Of a DNA stretch of 64,000 nt, positions 16,513 to 64,000 are shown piece after piece. Made by a program: the position numbers and the translations under genes. Under the pieces are notes generated by a model, which was not told the origin of the DNA, did no database searches, and saw only the letters and a list, made by a program, of their open reading frames with translations. Every line of letters starts with the position of its first letter. The stretch's first letter is position 1. The stretch covers positions 1-64,000 of the forward strand of contig JALWTD010000013.1 of NCBI GenBank assembly GCA_027082925.1. Reading direction: 5' to 3'. The stretch is from Flavobacteriaceae bacterium (GTDB lineage: Bacteria; Bacteroidota; Bacteroidia; Flavobacteriales; Flavobacteriaceae).

Positions 16513-16592
16513 CTTTAATTGTTAAGTGATAGGGATTATGAATTAAGGCTTAATCCTTCGATAATCTAACTCCTATCGGTTAAAATTTATAA
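16513..16592 (-). promoter_or_regulatory. Candidate structured leader before rpsD
   Basis: This 80-nt spacer is far longer than most gaps in the operon, which run from 1-nt overlaps to 38 nt. On the minus strand it contains two mutually exclusive pairings. One is CGATA with TATCG (plus 16574-16578 with 16559-16563). The other is GATAG with CTATC (plus 16573-16577 with 16528-16532), enclosing GGATTA with TAATCC (16551-16556 with 16533-16538). This arrangement fits an S4-responsive switch, but it is an inference from spacing and complementarity only. Confidence 0.45.
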
Positions 16593-26669: not shown

Positions 26670-27299
26670 CTATTTACTTAAATTAGATTCAATCCCTTCT
26701 AAAGTACTTTCAAAAAGGACAACTTTGTTTGCATTCAACAACTCGTAAGTACTTAAACCTGAATTAGTTACAACTTTAGAGTGTTTTAAATTGCGCGATG
26801 ACAAATATACATTTTTATTTGATTCAGCAAACACAAATAAAGATTTTTTGTTCTCAATTCCTAAAGCCTTTAAAACTTCCATAAAGTTTTTGGTTTTTGG
26901 TGTTTCGAAGCTAAAATCTTCTACAACAATGATATTATTGTCTTTTGCTTGAATACTTAATGCAGATTTTCGAGCTAATCTCTTTAAATTTTTGTTTAAT
27001 TTAAAAGAGTAATCTTTTGGTCTTGGACCAAAAATTCTACCTCCTCCTCTAAATACAGGAGATTTAATACTACCTGCACGAGCTGTACCTGTACCTTTTT
27101 GTTTTTTAATCTTACGGGTACTTCCTGATATTTCTGCTCTTTCTTTAGCTTTATGAGTTCCTTGTCTTTTATTGGCCAAAAATTGCTTTACATCTAAATA
27201 TACAGCGTGGTTGTTTGGCTCAATTCCATATACAGCATCAGAAAGGTCTACTTTTCTTCCTGTATCTTTTCCTTGTATGTCTAAAACTGATACTTTCAT
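26670..27299 (-). CDS. rplD: Ribosomal protein uL4
   Basis: A 209-residue protein lining the exit tunnel. The extended loop [43 protein letters not shown] is intact. L4 is the autogenous regulator of the S10 operon in E. coli, where it causes termination and translation block in the leader. Its ATG overlaps the rplC stop codon by one base (TAATG). The attenuator-like region two genes upstream makes L4 a natural candidate regulator here. Confidence 0.97.
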
Positions 27300-27916
27300 T
27301 ATTTCTGAATAATTACATAAGCGTTTTTATGCCCAGGAACACATCCTTTAACAACTAGTAAGTTCTTTTCTGGAACTACTTTTAAAACTCTTAAATTTTG
27401 AACTGTAACTTTTTCTCCACCCATTCTACCTGCCATTCGCATTCCTTTGAATACTCTTGCAGGATAAGATGCCGCTCCAATAGAACCTGGAGCTCTTAAA
27501 CGGTTATGCTGACCGTGTGTTGCTTGACCAACTCCGGCAAAACCGTGACGTTTTACTACACCTTGAAAACCTTTTCCTTTAGAGGTTGCTGATACATCAA
27601 CAAATTCTCCTTCTGTAAAAAGTTCTACTGTTATTTCATCTCCTAATTTATGCTCTTCTTCAAATCCTTGGAATTCGACAACTTTCTTTTTAGCAGAAGT
27701 TCCGGCCTTTTTAAAGTGACCTTGTAACGCTTTATTAGTGCGTTTTTCTGCCTTGTCATCGAAACCTAATTGAAGGGCACTATACCCGTCTACCTCTTCG
27801 GTTCTGACTTGGGTAACTACGCATGGACCTGCTTCGATTACTGTACATGGAATATTCTTCCCGTTTTCATCGAACAAACTGGTCATACCGACTTTTCTTC
27901 CTATTAACCCAGACAT
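27299..27916 (-). CDS. rplC: Ribosomal protein uL3
   Basis: A 205-residue primary 23S-binding protein: [37 protein letters not shown] at the start and [32 protein letters not shown] in the extension that reaches the peptidyl-transferase centre. It is separated from rpsJ by a 144-nt region holding a strong terminator hairpin, so expression of this gene and everything after it depends on read-through or antitermination. Confidence 0.98.
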
Positions 27917-28060
27917 GTTTATTTAATTATTATTTATTAATTGTTTTTATTTCAAAAAAACAGGGTCAAAATACTTCAACCCTGAATGTATTTTTACGTT
28001 TTTCCTTCGTCAACCGCTCCGGACATGTTATCGGAATTTTTCATCCGACATTTAAAGTAA
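27917..28060 (-). promoter_or_regulatory. Candidate attenuator/leader between rpsJ and rplC
   Basis: This 144-nt spacer inside the ribosomal operon shows, on the minus strand and in order: a tiny ORF ATG 28051 to TAA 28028 (MSDEKFR); a second tiny ORF ATG 28026 to TAA 27994 (MSGAVDEGKT), one nt after the first stop; a strong intrinsic terminator (27954-27984); and a 37-nt AT-rich stretch before rplC. TCGGA/TCCGA pairing is also possible inside the first ORF. It looks like a transcription attenuator for the S10-spc-alpha part. The ligand is unknown, and L4 is the obvious guess. Confidence 0.5.
27954..27984 (-). terminator. Internal intrinsic terminator upstream of rplC
   Basis: On the minus strand CAGGGTTGAA pairs with TTTGACCCTG (ten pairs, including two G-U pairs in RNA, loop GTAT) over 27961-27984. 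Seven T follow directly at 27960-27954. By pattern it is as good a terminator as the ones at operon ends, yet it lies in the middle of the ribosomal operon. Confidence 0.8.
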
Positions 28061-28366
28061 TTAAACTTTAATTTCTACCTCAACTCCACTAGGTAACTCT
28101 AACTTCATTAAAGCATCGATAGTTTTTGATGATGAACTATAAATGTCTAACAAGCGTTTGTAGGTACTTAATTGGAATTGTTCTCTTGATTTTTTATTTA
28201 CGTGTGGTGAACGTAATACTGTAAAAATCTTTTTATGAGTTGGTAGTGGTATTGGCCCGTTTACAACTGCGCCAGTGGTTTTTACCGCTTTTACGATTTT
28301 TTCAGCAGATTTATCTACTAAATTGTAATCGTATGATTTTAATTTTATTCTAATTTTTTGACTCAT
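28061..28366 (-). CDS. rpsJ: Ribosomal protein uS10
   Basis: A 101-residue protein of the 30S head that also serves as NusE in antitermination complexes. Signatures are [57 protein letters not shown] and the C-terminal [11 protein letters not shown]. It lies 17 bp after fusA, joining the str and S10 clusters, and is followed by the attenuator-like spacer. Confidence 0.97.
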
Positions 28367-38091: not shown

Positions 38092-38128
38092 AAAAACCTA
38101 TGAACTTCGGTTCGTAGGTTTTTTTTTT
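38092..38128 (+). terminator. Strong UUCG-tetraloop terminator after first SusCD pair
   Basis: AAAAACCTATGAAC (38092-38105) pairs over 14 positions, with one T-G pair, with GTTCGTAGGTTTTT (38110-38123). The stem is closed by a C(TTCG)G tetraloop and followed by more T. This separates the two SusCD loci into independent transcripts. Confidence 0.93.
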
Positions 38129-59166: not shown

Positions 59167-62100
59167 TTGAAAAATTATTTACCTAAAACAAAAACTATAA
59201 ACTTCATTCTTCTTGCTTTTACATGTTTTACACTGTCTGTACTACAATCTCAAAACACGAGTAATTATCCTGAGTTATGGCAAAAAGTACAACGCTTTGA
59301 AATTAAAAAACTACCTAAATCTGCTTCAGAAATTGTTGATAGCATATATCATAAAGCCAGTCTAGAAAACAATTCGCCTCAGCTTATAAAATCGCTTATT
59401 TATCAATCTAAATTTGCTTTAATTTTAAAAGAAAATGCGCATTTACAAGTTATTCAGCATCTAAAAAATGAGATTTCAAGGGCTTCTGCTCCTACAAAAA
59501 ATATATTGGAAAGTATTTTAGGTGATTTGTATTGGCAATATTACCAACAAAACAGATGGAAGTTTTATAAAAGAACAACAAGTTCTGAAAAAATGGATTC
59601 TCTAGATTTTAGAACATGGGATTTACAAACGCTATTTATAACCGTTCACAACCACTACCAAAACTCATTAAAAAATAGTGATTTATTAAAAAAAACAACA
59701 CTTAAATTATTTAATAACATTCTTGTTCTTAGTAAAAACTCTAAACAATTTAGACCTACACTCTACGATTTTTTAGCATATAGAGCCATTGATTTTTATA
59801 AAAATAAAGAAAATTACTTAACGCGTCCTTCTTATAAATTTGAAATAAACGATACGCGTCTTTTAGGAAGTATTCAAGAATTTATCGCCGCTACTATACC
59901 CACAAAAGACAGTTTATCGCAACACTTACATGCCGTAAAGTTATATCAAGATTTATCTGTTTTTCATTTAAACGATAAAAATCCTGCAGCATTCATAAAT
60001 TTAACACTCAACCGACTTCGTTTTATAAAAAATAATGCCGTTTTTGAAAATAAAGACAGTGTGTATTTAAATACCCTTTTAAACTTAAAAAATAAGTACA
60101 AAAAACACGAAGCATCTAGTAACATAAACTTTGAAATTGCGCAAATATATTATGAGCTATCTAGTAAATATGTTCCTAAAACCAACACTAAAAATCAATT
60201 TAAACGACAAGATGCCCTTAAAGAATGTGAACAAGCAATTGCTTTATTTCCTAAAGCTACCGGTACAAAGAAATGCAAGGTTTTAAAAAATAAAATACTA
60301 CAACTGCATTTAGCCATTACTGCTGAAAAATACATTCCTATAAACACACCTTCACGGTTATTAGTGGCGTATAAAAACATTAACAATCTTTATTTTTATG
60401 CCGTAAAAATAAACAACAAACAACAAGAAGTTTATTCTAAAATATACAACGATTCTGCCAGAGTTGCCTTTATAAAAAAGCTCATCGTAACAAAAAAGTG
60501 GGACGCTCATTTAAAAAATGAACACGATTACCAAATTCATAAAACTGAAATTTTAGTTCCTGAATTACCTCAAGGCAGATATCTCATATTGGCCACTCCA
60601 AATAACCCCAAAATACTTCCTAATAAAACCATTGCTTTTAGCATACTACAAGTTACAAATTTGGCTTTAGTTGAGAATCATAACAATGGTGAATATCACT
60701 ATCAAATTGTTGATAGAAATACGGGAAACCCTATTAAAAAAGCAAGCGTAAATCTAAAAAATTACAATACAGGCAGGTATAACAAACCCTTAAATAAAAA
60801 TTTTAAAACAAACGAATTTGGTCAATTTTCATATAAAAGTAGAAAAGATTACAGCAATATTATAATTACGGCAAATCACGGAAATGATACAGCCACTTTT
60901 GGTGATTATTATTTTTACAAACATCAAAAAAGAGATTATCAAGATGACGATGAGGAGATTATAATTAAATCTTTTTTATTTACAGATAGAAGCATTTATC
61001 GTCCCGGACAAACGGTGTACTTTAAAGGAATTTTTATTAAAAAAATAGGCGATAAAACAAGTTTATTTACCAATGAATATGTCGAAATTATTCTAGAAGA
61101 TCCCAATGGCGAAGATGTAAAGCAATTAGACTTAAAAATTAATGAATATGGAAGTGTTTCTGGTGAATTTAAACTTCCTTCATCTGGTTTAACGGGCCAG
61201 TACACTATTTACATAGATGAAAGCTATGAATACGATAGTAAATTTTACGACAATGAAGATTTTTATTTTGAAGATGAATACGATTTTACCATTGCTGTTG
61301 AAGAATACAAACGTCCAAAATTTGAAGCCATATTTAACCCTGTAAAGGAGACATATCAATTAAACGACAGTATAACTGTAAAAGGAACTGCAGAAGCTTT
61401 TTCCGGAAGTAAAATTAGCCACGCAAAAGTAGCTTACCGCGTAGTTAGAACTGCCAATTTCCCTATTTGGTACAACTGGTATGCTTCTAATTATTTTGAC
61501 TCTCCAAAACTAGAAATAACTCACGGAGAAACTGAAACAGATGAAAACGGTTTATATAACATCACTTTTAAAGCCATTCCAGATTTAGAAATACCAAAGG
61601 AAAACATGCCTACCTTTAACTATAAGGTATATGCCGATATTACCGATATTAATGGGGAAACTCACAGCGCTGAAACTATTGTTAAAGTTGGATATCACTC
61701 GCTTACCATTTCTGCAAACATAGCTGCAAAAGTTGACCAATTAAAAACAGATAATGTACTTACTATTTCATCTAATAATTTAAATGGCGAATTTGTTCCT
61801 ACAAAGGGAACTCTAAAAATATACAAATTAAAATCTCCTCAAAACCCTCTTAGAGAAAGACCTTGGAGTGAACCAGATTATCAATTATTTACCGAAAATG
61901 AATTTCGAAACTATTTCCCTCACGATCCTTTTACCGAAGATGAAAATGTAGAAAAAAATTGGAAAAAAGGACCGTTAGTTGCTGAATATAACTTTGACAC
62001 CGGAAAATCTAAAAAAATAATTTTAGAAAATATGAAAGAATGGGTTACCGGAAAATATCTCCTTATTGCTGAAGGAAATGATAAATTTGGGCAACAGATT

Positions 62101-64000
62101 ATAGCTAAAAAACGATTCTCTGTTTTTAATAGCAAAAATACGCATGTATCTGATAACAAGTTGTTTGAAATTAATACTGATAAGTTTGTTTACCATGCAA
62201 ACGAAATGGTTCAACTTCAAATAGGCTCAGCATCAAAAGACATTTCTGTGACTCTTGAAATTGAAAAACAACACCGTATTGTTACCCGTTATATTATTCA
62301 TTTAAACAACGAAATAAAAACAATAAGTATTCCTGTTTACAAAGAAGACGAAGGTGGATTTGCAATTAAATACCACTACGTAAACTACAATAGTTTTAAA
62401 AGCGGAAGCATCCTTGTTAACGTTCCGTATACCCAAAATAACTTGCAAATAGAAACACTCACTTTTAGAGATAAAATACAACCCGGAAGTAAACAAACTT
62501 GGAGCTTTAAAATTAAAGGAAGCAATAGCACTAAAGTTGCAGCAGAAGTATTGGCATCTATGTATGACGCTTCTTTAGATAAATTTAAGAGTCACGATTG
62601 GAATTTTAACCCTATAACCAGATACGGCTATTATTCAAACATACAAATCAATGCTAGTAAAAGTTTTGGAACTAAAAATTTTGCGATAAGAAACAAACCT
62701 TCTGTATACTATTCCTTTTTTCAGCAACAATACGATGCCTTAAATTGGTTTGGTTTTAGTTTTAGAAATAACTCTTACACAAATCGGTATTACTTAACAA
62801 AAACAAAAAAAGCAATTAAAAGTGAACGTGCGAAATACGACAAAATAATTAGCGGAACCGTGACCGATGAGAGTGGACCTTTACCAGGTGTAAACATAAC
62901 TATTCGTGGAACCAACTTTGGCACACAAACCGACTTTGATGGACATTATAGCATTAAAGTAAAAAGTGGCGATCAACTGGTTTTTAGTTTTATAGGAATG
63001 ATAACCGCTTCAAAAGTTATAGGAAATCAGTCTAAAATAGACGTACAACTTGAAGCGTCTGAAGAGCATTTAGATGAAGTGGTAGTTACTGCATTGGGCA
63101 TTAAAAGGAATAATAAAGCACTCGGATATTCAGTTTCAACGGTTTTTTCAGATAAAATTGCTGCAACCGACGACATTGCAACTATTTTAGCCGGAAAAGT
63201 TTCCGGTGTTCAAATTACAGGTGCCGCAGGTGCTTCAGACAAAATTACAATACGAGGAATGAGCAGTGCTTCTACTAAAAATAAACTTCTTTTTATTGTT
63301 GATGGCGTTCCTGTAGAAGATTTTGATATTGAAGCTAATGAACTTGCCGGTTTAAGCATTTTAAAAGGAACCGAAGCTGTTGCTTTATACGGTGCTAAAG
63401 CCGCTAATGGTGTAATTATTATTAGTACCAAAAAAGGACAAGAAACACTTGATTTACAACTATCTAAAGTAAATGCTCGAAAAAACTTTAATGAAACTGC
63501 TTTCTTTTATCCGCATCTAAAAACCGATAAAAATGGGGAAATACAATTTTCGTTTAACACACCTGAATCTTTAACTCGATGGAAATTACAATTATTAGCA
63601 CATACTAAAAACTTAGAAATCGCCATTAAAAGTTTATCAACCATTACTCAAAAAGAGCTTATGGTTACACCCAATGCACCTCGATTTTTACGAGAAGGAG
63701 ATCAAATTGTGTTTTCTAGTAAAATAAGTAATTTAACCAAAAATAGTATGCAAGGATTGGCTGTCTTACTATTAACAAATGTAATTACAGGTGCAAAAAT
63801 AAATACCATCACAAAAGAAACGCCAAAACAACATTTTTCAATTGCTAAAAATGGAAATACCACAGTAAACTGGACATTAAAAATACCTGATAGTATTCAG
63901 GCCATTCAGTACAAAGTTATTGCCACAGCAGGCAATTTTTCTGATGGAGAACAAAATATATTACCTGTACTATCAAACAGAATGCTTATTACAGAAACAT
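59167..64000 (+). CDS. Alpha-2-macroglobulin-like secreted giant with inserted SusC-type plug cassette (3' truncated)
   Basis: An uninterrupted frame of more than 1600 codons that runs off the right edge. The start is TTG 59167, giving signal peptide MKNYLPKTKTINFILLAFTC and onward to about residue 30. There is no lipobox, so it is not an obvious lipoprotein. The N-terminal part is helical. The MG2 hallmark TDRSIYRPGQTVYFKG is at 606-621, and beta-sandwich domains continue to about 1215. Residues 1227-1310 are a carboxypeptidase-regulatory-like domain, followed by EVVVTALGIKR and a TonB-plug domain to about 1425. The macroglobulin A2M domain then begins (RKNFNETAFFYPHL from 1438, RWKLQLLAHT from 1471). 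No barrel follows the plug. The thioester region, if any, is beyond the window. Confidence 0.88.
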   Translation, partial: MKNYLPKTKTINFILLAFTCFTLSVLQSQNTSNYPELWQKVQRFEIKKLPKSASEIVDSIYHKASLENNSPQLIKSLIYQSKFALILKENAHLQVIQHLKNEISRASAPTKNILESILGDLYWQYYQQNRWKFYKRTTSSEKMDSLDFRTWDLQTLFITVHNHYQNSLKNSDLLKKTTLKLFNNILVLSKNSKQFRPTLYDFLAYRAIDFYKNKENYLTRPSYKFEINDTRLLGSIQEFIAATIPTKDSLSQHLHAVKLYQDLSVFHLNDKNPAAFINLTLNRLRFIKNNAVFENKDSVYLNTLLNLKNKYKKHEASSNINFEIAQIYYELSSKYVPKTNTKNQFKRQDALKECEQAIALFPKATGTKKCKVLKNKILQLHLAITAEKYIPINTPSRLLVAYKNINNLYFYAVKINNKQQEVYSKIYNDSARVAFIKKLIVTKKWDAHLKNEHDYQIHKTEILVPELPQGRYLILATPNNPKILPNKTIAFSILQVTNLALVENHNNGEYHYQIVDRNTGNPIKKASVNLKNYNTGRYNKPLNKNFKTNEFGQFSYKSRKDYSNIIITANHGNDTATFGDYYFYKHQKRDYQDDDEEIIIKSFLFTDRSIYRPGQTVYFKGIFIKKIGDKTSLFTNEYVEIILEDPNGEDVKQLDLKINEYGSVSGEFKLPSSGLTGQYTIYIDESYEYDSKFYDNEDFYFEDEYDFTIAVEEYKRPKFEAIFNPVKETYQLNDSITVKGTAEAFSGSKISHAKVAYRVVRTANFPIWYNWYASNYFDSPKLEITHGETETDENGLYNITFKAIPDLEIPKENMPTFNYKVYADITDINGETHSAETIVKVGYHSLTISANIAAKVDQLKTDNVLTISSNNLNGEFVPTKGTLKIYKLKSPQNPLRERPWSEPDYQLFTENEFRNYFPHDPFTEDENVEKNWKKGPLVAEYNFDTGKSKKIILENMKEWVTGKYLLIAEGNDKFGQQIIAKKRFSVFNSKNTHVSDNKLFEINTDKFVYHANEMVQLQIGSASKDISVTLEIEKQHRIVTRYIIHLNNEIKTISIPVYKEDEGGFAIKYHYVNYNSFKSGSILVNVPYTQNNLQIETLTFRDKIQPGSKQTWSFKIKGSNSTKVAAEVLASMYDASLDKFKSHDWNFNPITRYGYYSNIQINASKSFGTKNFAIRNKPSVYYSFFQQQYDALNWFGFSFRNNSYTNRYYLTKTKKAIKSERAKYDKIISGTVTDESGPLPGVNITIRGTNFGTQTDFDGHYSIKVKSGDQLVFSFIGMITASKVIGNQSKIDVQLEASEEHLDEVVVTALGIKRNNKALGYSVSTVFSDKIAATDDIATILAGKVSGVQITGAAGASDKITIRGMSSASTKNKLLFIVDGVPVEDFDIEANELAGLSILKGTEAVALYGAKAANGVIIISTKKGQETLDLQLSKVNARKNFNETAFFYPHLKTDKNGEIQFSFNTPESLTRWKLQLLAHTKNLEIAIKSLSTITQKELMVTPNAPRFLREGDQIVFSSKISNLTKNSMQGLAVLLLTNVITGAKINTITKETPKQHFSIAKNGNTTVNWTLKIPDSIQAIQYKVIATAGNFSDGEQNILPVLSNRMLITET

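Follow-up and report, generated by a model that had tools for sequence, protein, structure and literature searches.

A conserved element between rpsJ and rplC in Flavobacteriaceae is a candidate transcription attenuator

The S10 leader of Escherichia coli, the operon of which is regulated by L4, is an attenuator of the S10 genes located in the 5'UTR before rpsJ, with an intrinsic terminator in the leader (PMC10931766). In the Bacillus subtilis L10(L12)4 (rplJ) and L20 leaders, the same source describes a terminator, an antiterminator and a protein-bound structure favouring termination, similar to the model proposed below. A 2020 survey of ribosomal leaders (Eckert and Weinberg, PMC7247131) lists S4, S15, S16 and further L19 leaders for Flavobacteria and L4 for Archaeoglobi, the latter being a candidate leader before rplC-rplD; the available text of that survey names none for rplC in Bacteroidota.

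The locus described here lies in a 64,000-nt stretch of DNA from a Flavobacteriaceae bacterium, the whole of which is called the window. Comparison with relatives makes it fairly probable that the gap between rpsJ and rplC acts in cis as a transcription attenuator of the rplC operon and represents a type of ribosomal-protein leader absent from Rfam, which probably adjusts the output of a long ribosomal-protein operon.

The rpsJ-rplC gap and its predicted parts

According to Pfam, the minus-strand gene order in the window is rpsL-rpsG-fusA-rpsJ, the 144-nt gap and rplC-rplD-rplW-rplB-rpsS-rplV, with secY, infA, rpsM, rpsK, rpsD, rpoA and rplQ further downstream of rplV. Thirteen Pfam-named genes are found downstream of the gap (rplC to rplQ) and four upstream. 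Among named relatives, the proteins closest to that of rplC come from Lutibacter (92% and 91% identity), which places the window probably in or near Lutibacter. Elsewhere in the window, a very long open frame on the plus strand (59167-63999, 1611 codons read) runs off the end.

The element is composed, as judged from aligned sequences, of three parts: an upstream hairpin (P0), the block ACAUGUCC-P1-GGAAAAACGG, and a putative switch consisting of A5, T5, A3, T3 and a T run. The features are, in the direction of transcription:

28061..28366, minus strand: rpsJ (S10), the gene preceding the element (Pfam PF00338, 2.3e-37)
27917-28060, minus strand: rpsJ-rplC gap, 144 nt (window sequence)
28051-28028, minus strand: mini-ORF 1, MSDEKFR, starting 9 nt past the rpsJ stop (window ORFs)
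28029..28050, minus strand: P0, upstream hairpin of variable sequence inside the first mini-ORF (centroid fold prediction)
28024..28028, minus strand: ACAUG, near-invariant 5' flank of P1, holding the AUG of the second mini-ORF (relatives' sequences)
28026-27994, minus strand: mini-ORF 2, MSGAVDEGKT, with its stop 9 nt before the terminator hairpin (window ORFs)
28003..28023, minus strand: P1 hairpin (UCC, purine-rich middle, GC, loop, GC, GAA, GGA), the presumed binding site
27996..28005, minus strand: GGAAAAACGG, near-invariant 3' side and flank of P1, in the window GGAAAAACGT (relatives' sequences)
27988..27994, minus strand: A5, 5' arm of the competing, antiterminator-like helix, AAAATAC (arm-swap tests)
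27975..27984, minus strand: T5, 5' arm of the terminator, CAGGGTTGAA (scan and alignments)
27968..27974, minus strand: A3, 3' arm of the competing helix, GTATTTT, in the terminator loop and upper 3' arm (arm-swap tests)
27961..27970, minus strand: T3, 3' arm of the terminator, TTTGACCCTG (scan and alignments)
27960-27954, minus strand: T run of the terminator, T7 (window sequence, terminator scan)
27299..27916, minus strand: rplC (L3), the first gene past the element (Pfam PF00297, 5.4e-17)

The terminator (27984-27961, minus strand) has a 10-bp stem and a GTAT loop followed by T7. The preliminary description had placed such a 10-bp terminator with T7, together with two small ORFs, in this gap, and the sequence, coordinates and ORFs agree with it. 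Taken alone, the hairpin of the window is weak evidence: the scanned 20 kb contained 15 terminator-like sites against 9.9 (sd 3.1) in shuffles, and the fold of the whole gap was barely better than shuffles (z -1.70, 12/200 shuffles equally good). The longest terminator-like stem in the scanned 20 kb is found at 38092-38123 on the plus strand, with 14 pairs, a TTCG loop and a T run.

Occurrence in relatives and linkage to rplC

Loci of rplC were collected from 60 relatives, 199 family genomes and named genomes, with up to 30 loci per genome search. The motif pattern was present in 94 of 138 gaps, including those of Lutibacter, Polaribacter, Tenacibaculum, Winogradskyella, Maribacter, Aquimarina and Gramella. 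The 44 gaps without it, one of which ends at a contig end (L020), include 12 loci named Flavobacterium; within the same 138 gaps, no motif pattern was seen in Chryseobacterium, Sphingobacterium, Pedobacter and Bacteroidales loci. The 94 cores were reduced to 87 distinct ones and then to 61 under 93% identity (alignment A1, the training alignment), from which a covariance model was built.

This model gave one match each in 172/199 Flavobacteriaceae genomes (171/198 genera) at E 1e-5 or better and none in the remaining 27. That the terminator is more than a chance hairpin follows from this conservation and from the pair changes on both sides described below. In tool-drawn samples of the order and the phylum, for which the search filters miss some weak matches, 37/296 genomes matched at E 2.8e-10 or better and 13/296 at 1e-4, respectively, every one of them in the family. 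Seventeen non-family genomes of the order sample matched weakly (E 2.2e-5 to 0.0097), and neither rpsJ nor rplC was found at the best 4 of these 17 matches (L195-L198). A second, weak match was given by each of two family genomes (G060 and G104) in the order search. The element is thus conserved just ahead of rplC, as far as sequence comparison goes, across most of the Flavobacteriaceae genomes examined.

The placements show that the element belongs to rplC and not to rpsJ. It was located within the rpsJ-rplC gap in 54/54 of the L140-L194 loci holding both genes, some of these genomes having already given loci. Among 80 further stretches, rplC starts behind the element on the same strand in all 80 and rpsJ ends before it in 78, while the remaining two, 500-nt stretches, show no rpsJ. 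In one case a change of gene order left the element with the presumed target gene: in the one-contig genome G459 (L158), rpsJ (1485234-1485536) is about 6.5 kb away from the element (1478703-1478779) with at least one long unrelated ORF between them, and the element stays by rplC, preceded by promoter-like TACATTTGC.

Promoter-like sequence also precedes two Polaribacter leaders (L116 and L120). Overall, a TTTG/TANNTTTG promoter-like pattern was found in 21/59 distinct gaps lacking the motif (8 of the 21 being 250-nt stretches preceding rplC without an adjacent rpsJ) versus 4/127 gaps with it, where the -7 matches seem to fall mostly inside the terminator itself. The pair is present in the rpsJ-rplC gap of 9/12 Flavobacterium-named loci without the leader (L082, L100, L106, L108, L109, L110, L112, L114 and L115), and loss of the leader seems, from the sequences, to accompany an own promoter in Flavobacterium-named loci.

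Conserved structures of the element

The hairpin, for which the preliminary description had looked to conservation in relatives, is kept in them. Standard pairs make up 97.5% of the terminator cells in the 61 training sequences and 98.4% in 80 held-out sequences, with both-side changes in 8/10 terminator pairs in training and held-out alignments alike and exchanges including GC, CG, AU and UA. The held-out loci are the better-scoring among the matches listed, their alignment (A2) was fitted to the model, and 5/80 held-out cores are identical to training cores. The whole-structure covariation score was equalled by 0/500 shuffles in each alignment, and one among five shuffle measures by 1/500 in the training alignment; shuffles and permutations keep shared ancestry, which inflates such tests. 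Sliding by 1-3 columns lowered the standard pairs of the whole structure from 79.0% to 32-50% (training) and from 96.3% to 28-54% (held-out).

Along the RNA the arms follow one another as A5, T5, A3, T3 and T run, T5:T3 being the terminator and A5:A3 the competing helix. The register of A5:A3 shifts between sequences (in fixed columns, just 52.5% of cells in the three upper pairs are standard in the training alignment), and arms were therefore exchanged between genomes. Own arms scored 15.25 against 12.69 (sd 0.28) for swapped arms in the 61 training sequences and 15.90 against 13.72 (sd 0.23) in the held-out ones, where 0/5000 permutations were as high; in both sets own arms are ahead by a z of about 9. 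A helix of at least 6 bp can be drawn in 73/75 held-out sequences. Arm pairs such as AAAATAC/GTATTTT, GAAAATAA/TTATTTTC, AAACAT/ATGTTT, AAAACAAA/TTTGTTTT, AAAGAAAA/TTTTCTTT and CAAAATAA/TTATTTTG display a variety of pair types, which argues for several independent changes.

In transcripts ending at A3, the mean predicted pairing probability of A5:A3 is 0.88 (59 sequences; at least 0.3 in 58/59). L063 and L072, in which the A helix was mistaken for the terminator, were left out of the energies and kept in the swap test. Alone, A5:A3 reaches a mean of -1.7 kcal/mol versus -13.6 for the terminator; being this weak, it would act only via timing or a bound factor. Folds of full-length leaders give a mean P(terminator) of 0.71 and P(A) of 0.25, with P(terminator) falling to 0.4 in L042 and to 0.0 in L116, a Polaribacter leader. 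Two helices, each backed by comparison, thus share bases, and they should exclude each other because of these shared bases and the short A3-T3 joint. A pseudoknot combining both was rejected by reasoning, as the 0-1 nt A3-T3 joint of short-terminator leaders cannot span a helix of 7-8 bp.

Upstream, P0 varies freely in sequence, and the region folds well in relatives. Across 112 distinct stretches its mean z relative to single-base shuffles is -3.29, and 107/112 reach -4 kcal/mol or lower versus 31 expected; 11 further leaders (11/123 distinct leaders) have no room for the hairpin. The block ACAUGUCC-P1-GGAAAAACGG is near-invariant among relatives, which for ACAUG is partly built in, as the sequence-picking pattern asked for part of the motif. 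Its AUG is present in 79/80 model-found leaders and is UUG in the other (L262).

In P1, the outer three pairs (UCC:GGA) are standard in 182/183 cells of the training and 240/240 of the held-out alignment, and an inner G-C becomes A-U in 20/80 held-out sequences. The purine-rich middle (GGA/GAA, UAA/GAG) lacks standard pairing in most of the 61 sequences, its pairs being non-standard in 27, 55 and 53 of them and the loop-closing pair in 28; in some it is fully Watson-Crick, e.g., UCCUUAAC:GUUAAGGA. In the genus of the window, and in the window itself, the inner stem is shifted out of register (GCGGUUGACG). The conserved GGAAAAACGG ends a few bases short of A5. In the window, the conserved AAAAACGG could also pair with the CUGUUUUU tail; this pairing was set aside since many relatives have other tails, as seen in the alignment. 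The start of the conserved block, ACATGTCCGG (28019-28028, minus strand), resembles the start of rplC in the window, ACATGTCTGG (27909-27918, minus strand); the bases preceding the rplC start differ in many relatives and the likeness is probably chance.

In 125 distinct leaders, the length of the second small ORF varies between 2 and about 50 codons, and the ORF over P1 is often only AUG-UCC-stop (44/125); it is two codons long in 38/80 further leaders. Three of the 125 rows are without ATG at the matched place, two (L077 and L191) through a misplaced pattern hit and one (L168) having TTG. No conserved frame, length or stop was found for the second ORF in the 125 and 80 leaders, and the first ORF lies in the freely varying hairpin, with no room for it in 11/123 distinct leaders. 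Both were therefore rejected as coding sequence. By this comparison, the peptide of the second ORF is not what is conserved, and the near-invariant AUG may owe its conservation to a role as RNA contact or initiation site.

Proposed regulation and comparison with known leaders

The preliminary description had read the site, ahead of rplC-rplD, as an attenuator in the position of an S10-type leader, and the conserved terminator and competing helix agree with that reading. T3 is made only after A5:A3 is complete; once T3 is out, the terminator taken alone is by far the stronger helix. During transcription, A5:A3 would form first and delay the terminator, giving read-through. Surplus ribosomal protein made downstream would bind P1 and GGAAAAACGG beside A5 and stop A5 from pairing, upon which the terminator could form. 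Termination would then lower rplC and later genes and leave rpsL-rpsG-fusA-rpsJ alone. We infer the protein step as well as the sign of control, which is repression in this scheme with activation as the alternative. L4 would be the likeliest ligand, a guess from comparison with E. coli alone, and L3, L23 and L2 are candidates too. A leader inside a gene run has precedent in the S4 leader within the same run of genes (16534-16566).

A special case of this scheme is strict L4 control as in the E. coli S10 leader, with L4 stabilising the paused polymerase at the terminator hairpin. The position of rplD as the second gene past the element and the role of L4 in the E. coli operon (PMC10931766) speak for it, but the E. 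coli type is described in that source as not found in Pseudomonas and of late origin within the gamma-proteobacteria, and the element has neither an Rfam match nor significant similarity to E. coli 23S rRNA, so we hold this form of control possible and rather doubtful. The rRNA references were E. coli 23S and 16S and a partial Phocaeicola 23S. A covariance model search of E. coli 23S with flanks gave best matches of just 6 bits (E 2.6), including one weak match of 4.7 bits (E 5.2) at about 1356-1406 of 23S. With a P1 weight matrix (73 gapless blocks), 0.445 of 200 shuffles were as good for E. coli 23S and 0.795 for E. coli 16S. One site in the Phocaeicola 23S stood at 0.025, and apparently the same place, position 2405, tops the E. 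coli 23S list; because the comparison covered three sequences and used shuffles that preserve base composition only, this site is left uncounted as evidence and taken as a lead.

A constitutive partial terminator would hold the str genes and the rplC operon at a fixed ratio to each other and need no ligand. The strength and conservation of the terminator would suit it, yet such a device could do without both the near-invariant upstream block (ACAUGUCC, GGAAAAACGG) and a competing helix whose arms match, and in G459 the element persists with rpsJ far off and seemingly its own promoter, which makes this explanation improbable.

The start codon might work without a peptide. A ribosome at the AUG or UUG of ACAUGUCC would cover P1, and initiation would compete with the ribosomal protein for P1, so that the leader would balance free ribosomal protein against ribosomes free to initiate and, via transcription termination, set the rplC operon; we regard this as a speculative and unlikely idea. 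Very unlikely is leader-peptide attenuation, in which ribosomes translating both small ORFs choose between terminator and antiterminator, a role for ribosome position that the preliminary description had suggested and that the near-invariant AUG would fit but the variable or absent first ORF and the unconserved frame, length and stop of the second, so often of two codons, speak against.

The ligand-responsive attenuator, our preferred reading, was compared with several described systems. Neither the window gap nor any of eight relatives matched Rfam 15 at the gathering score, and a permissive Rfam search gave just a chance match (E 4.9). No report of this element was found among the papers listed in the literature searches. 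In comparison with the E. coli S10 leader, the element lies after rpsJ and before rplC, has no model match and possesses a conserved competing helix. The B. subtilis L10(L12)4 and L20 leaders belong to different operons and gave no Rfam match here, and protein binding is only proposed for the present element. The L4-Archaeoglobi leader is archaeal (Table 1 of PMC7247131), and the element here has no Rfam match. The GUCCY-hairpin motif (Weinberg 2010, PMC2864571) recalls, by its name and its Bacteroidetes range, the GUCC opening P1; according to the table of that paper, it also occurs in Proteobacteria, is classed as ambiguous and has no Rfam number, and it may overlap with the present element. 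The S4-Flavobacteria leader (Rfam RF03141, 53.2 bits, 16534-16566, minus strand), located between rpsK and rpsD, is likewise a ribosomal-protein leader within this run of genes; it is a 33-position model before rpsD to which the rplC element has no match.

From the compared sequences, the element is best read as a ribosomal-protein leader, so far undescribed, that belongs to the rplC operon, the GUCCY-hairpin having been compared by description only. The RNA is compact and contains a clear candidate switch. If the reading is true, a large share of the ribosomal-protein genes of Flavobacteriaceae would have a control point inside the gene run rather than at its start, and the element would add to the cases of S10-spc gene control having arisen anew in a different phylum.
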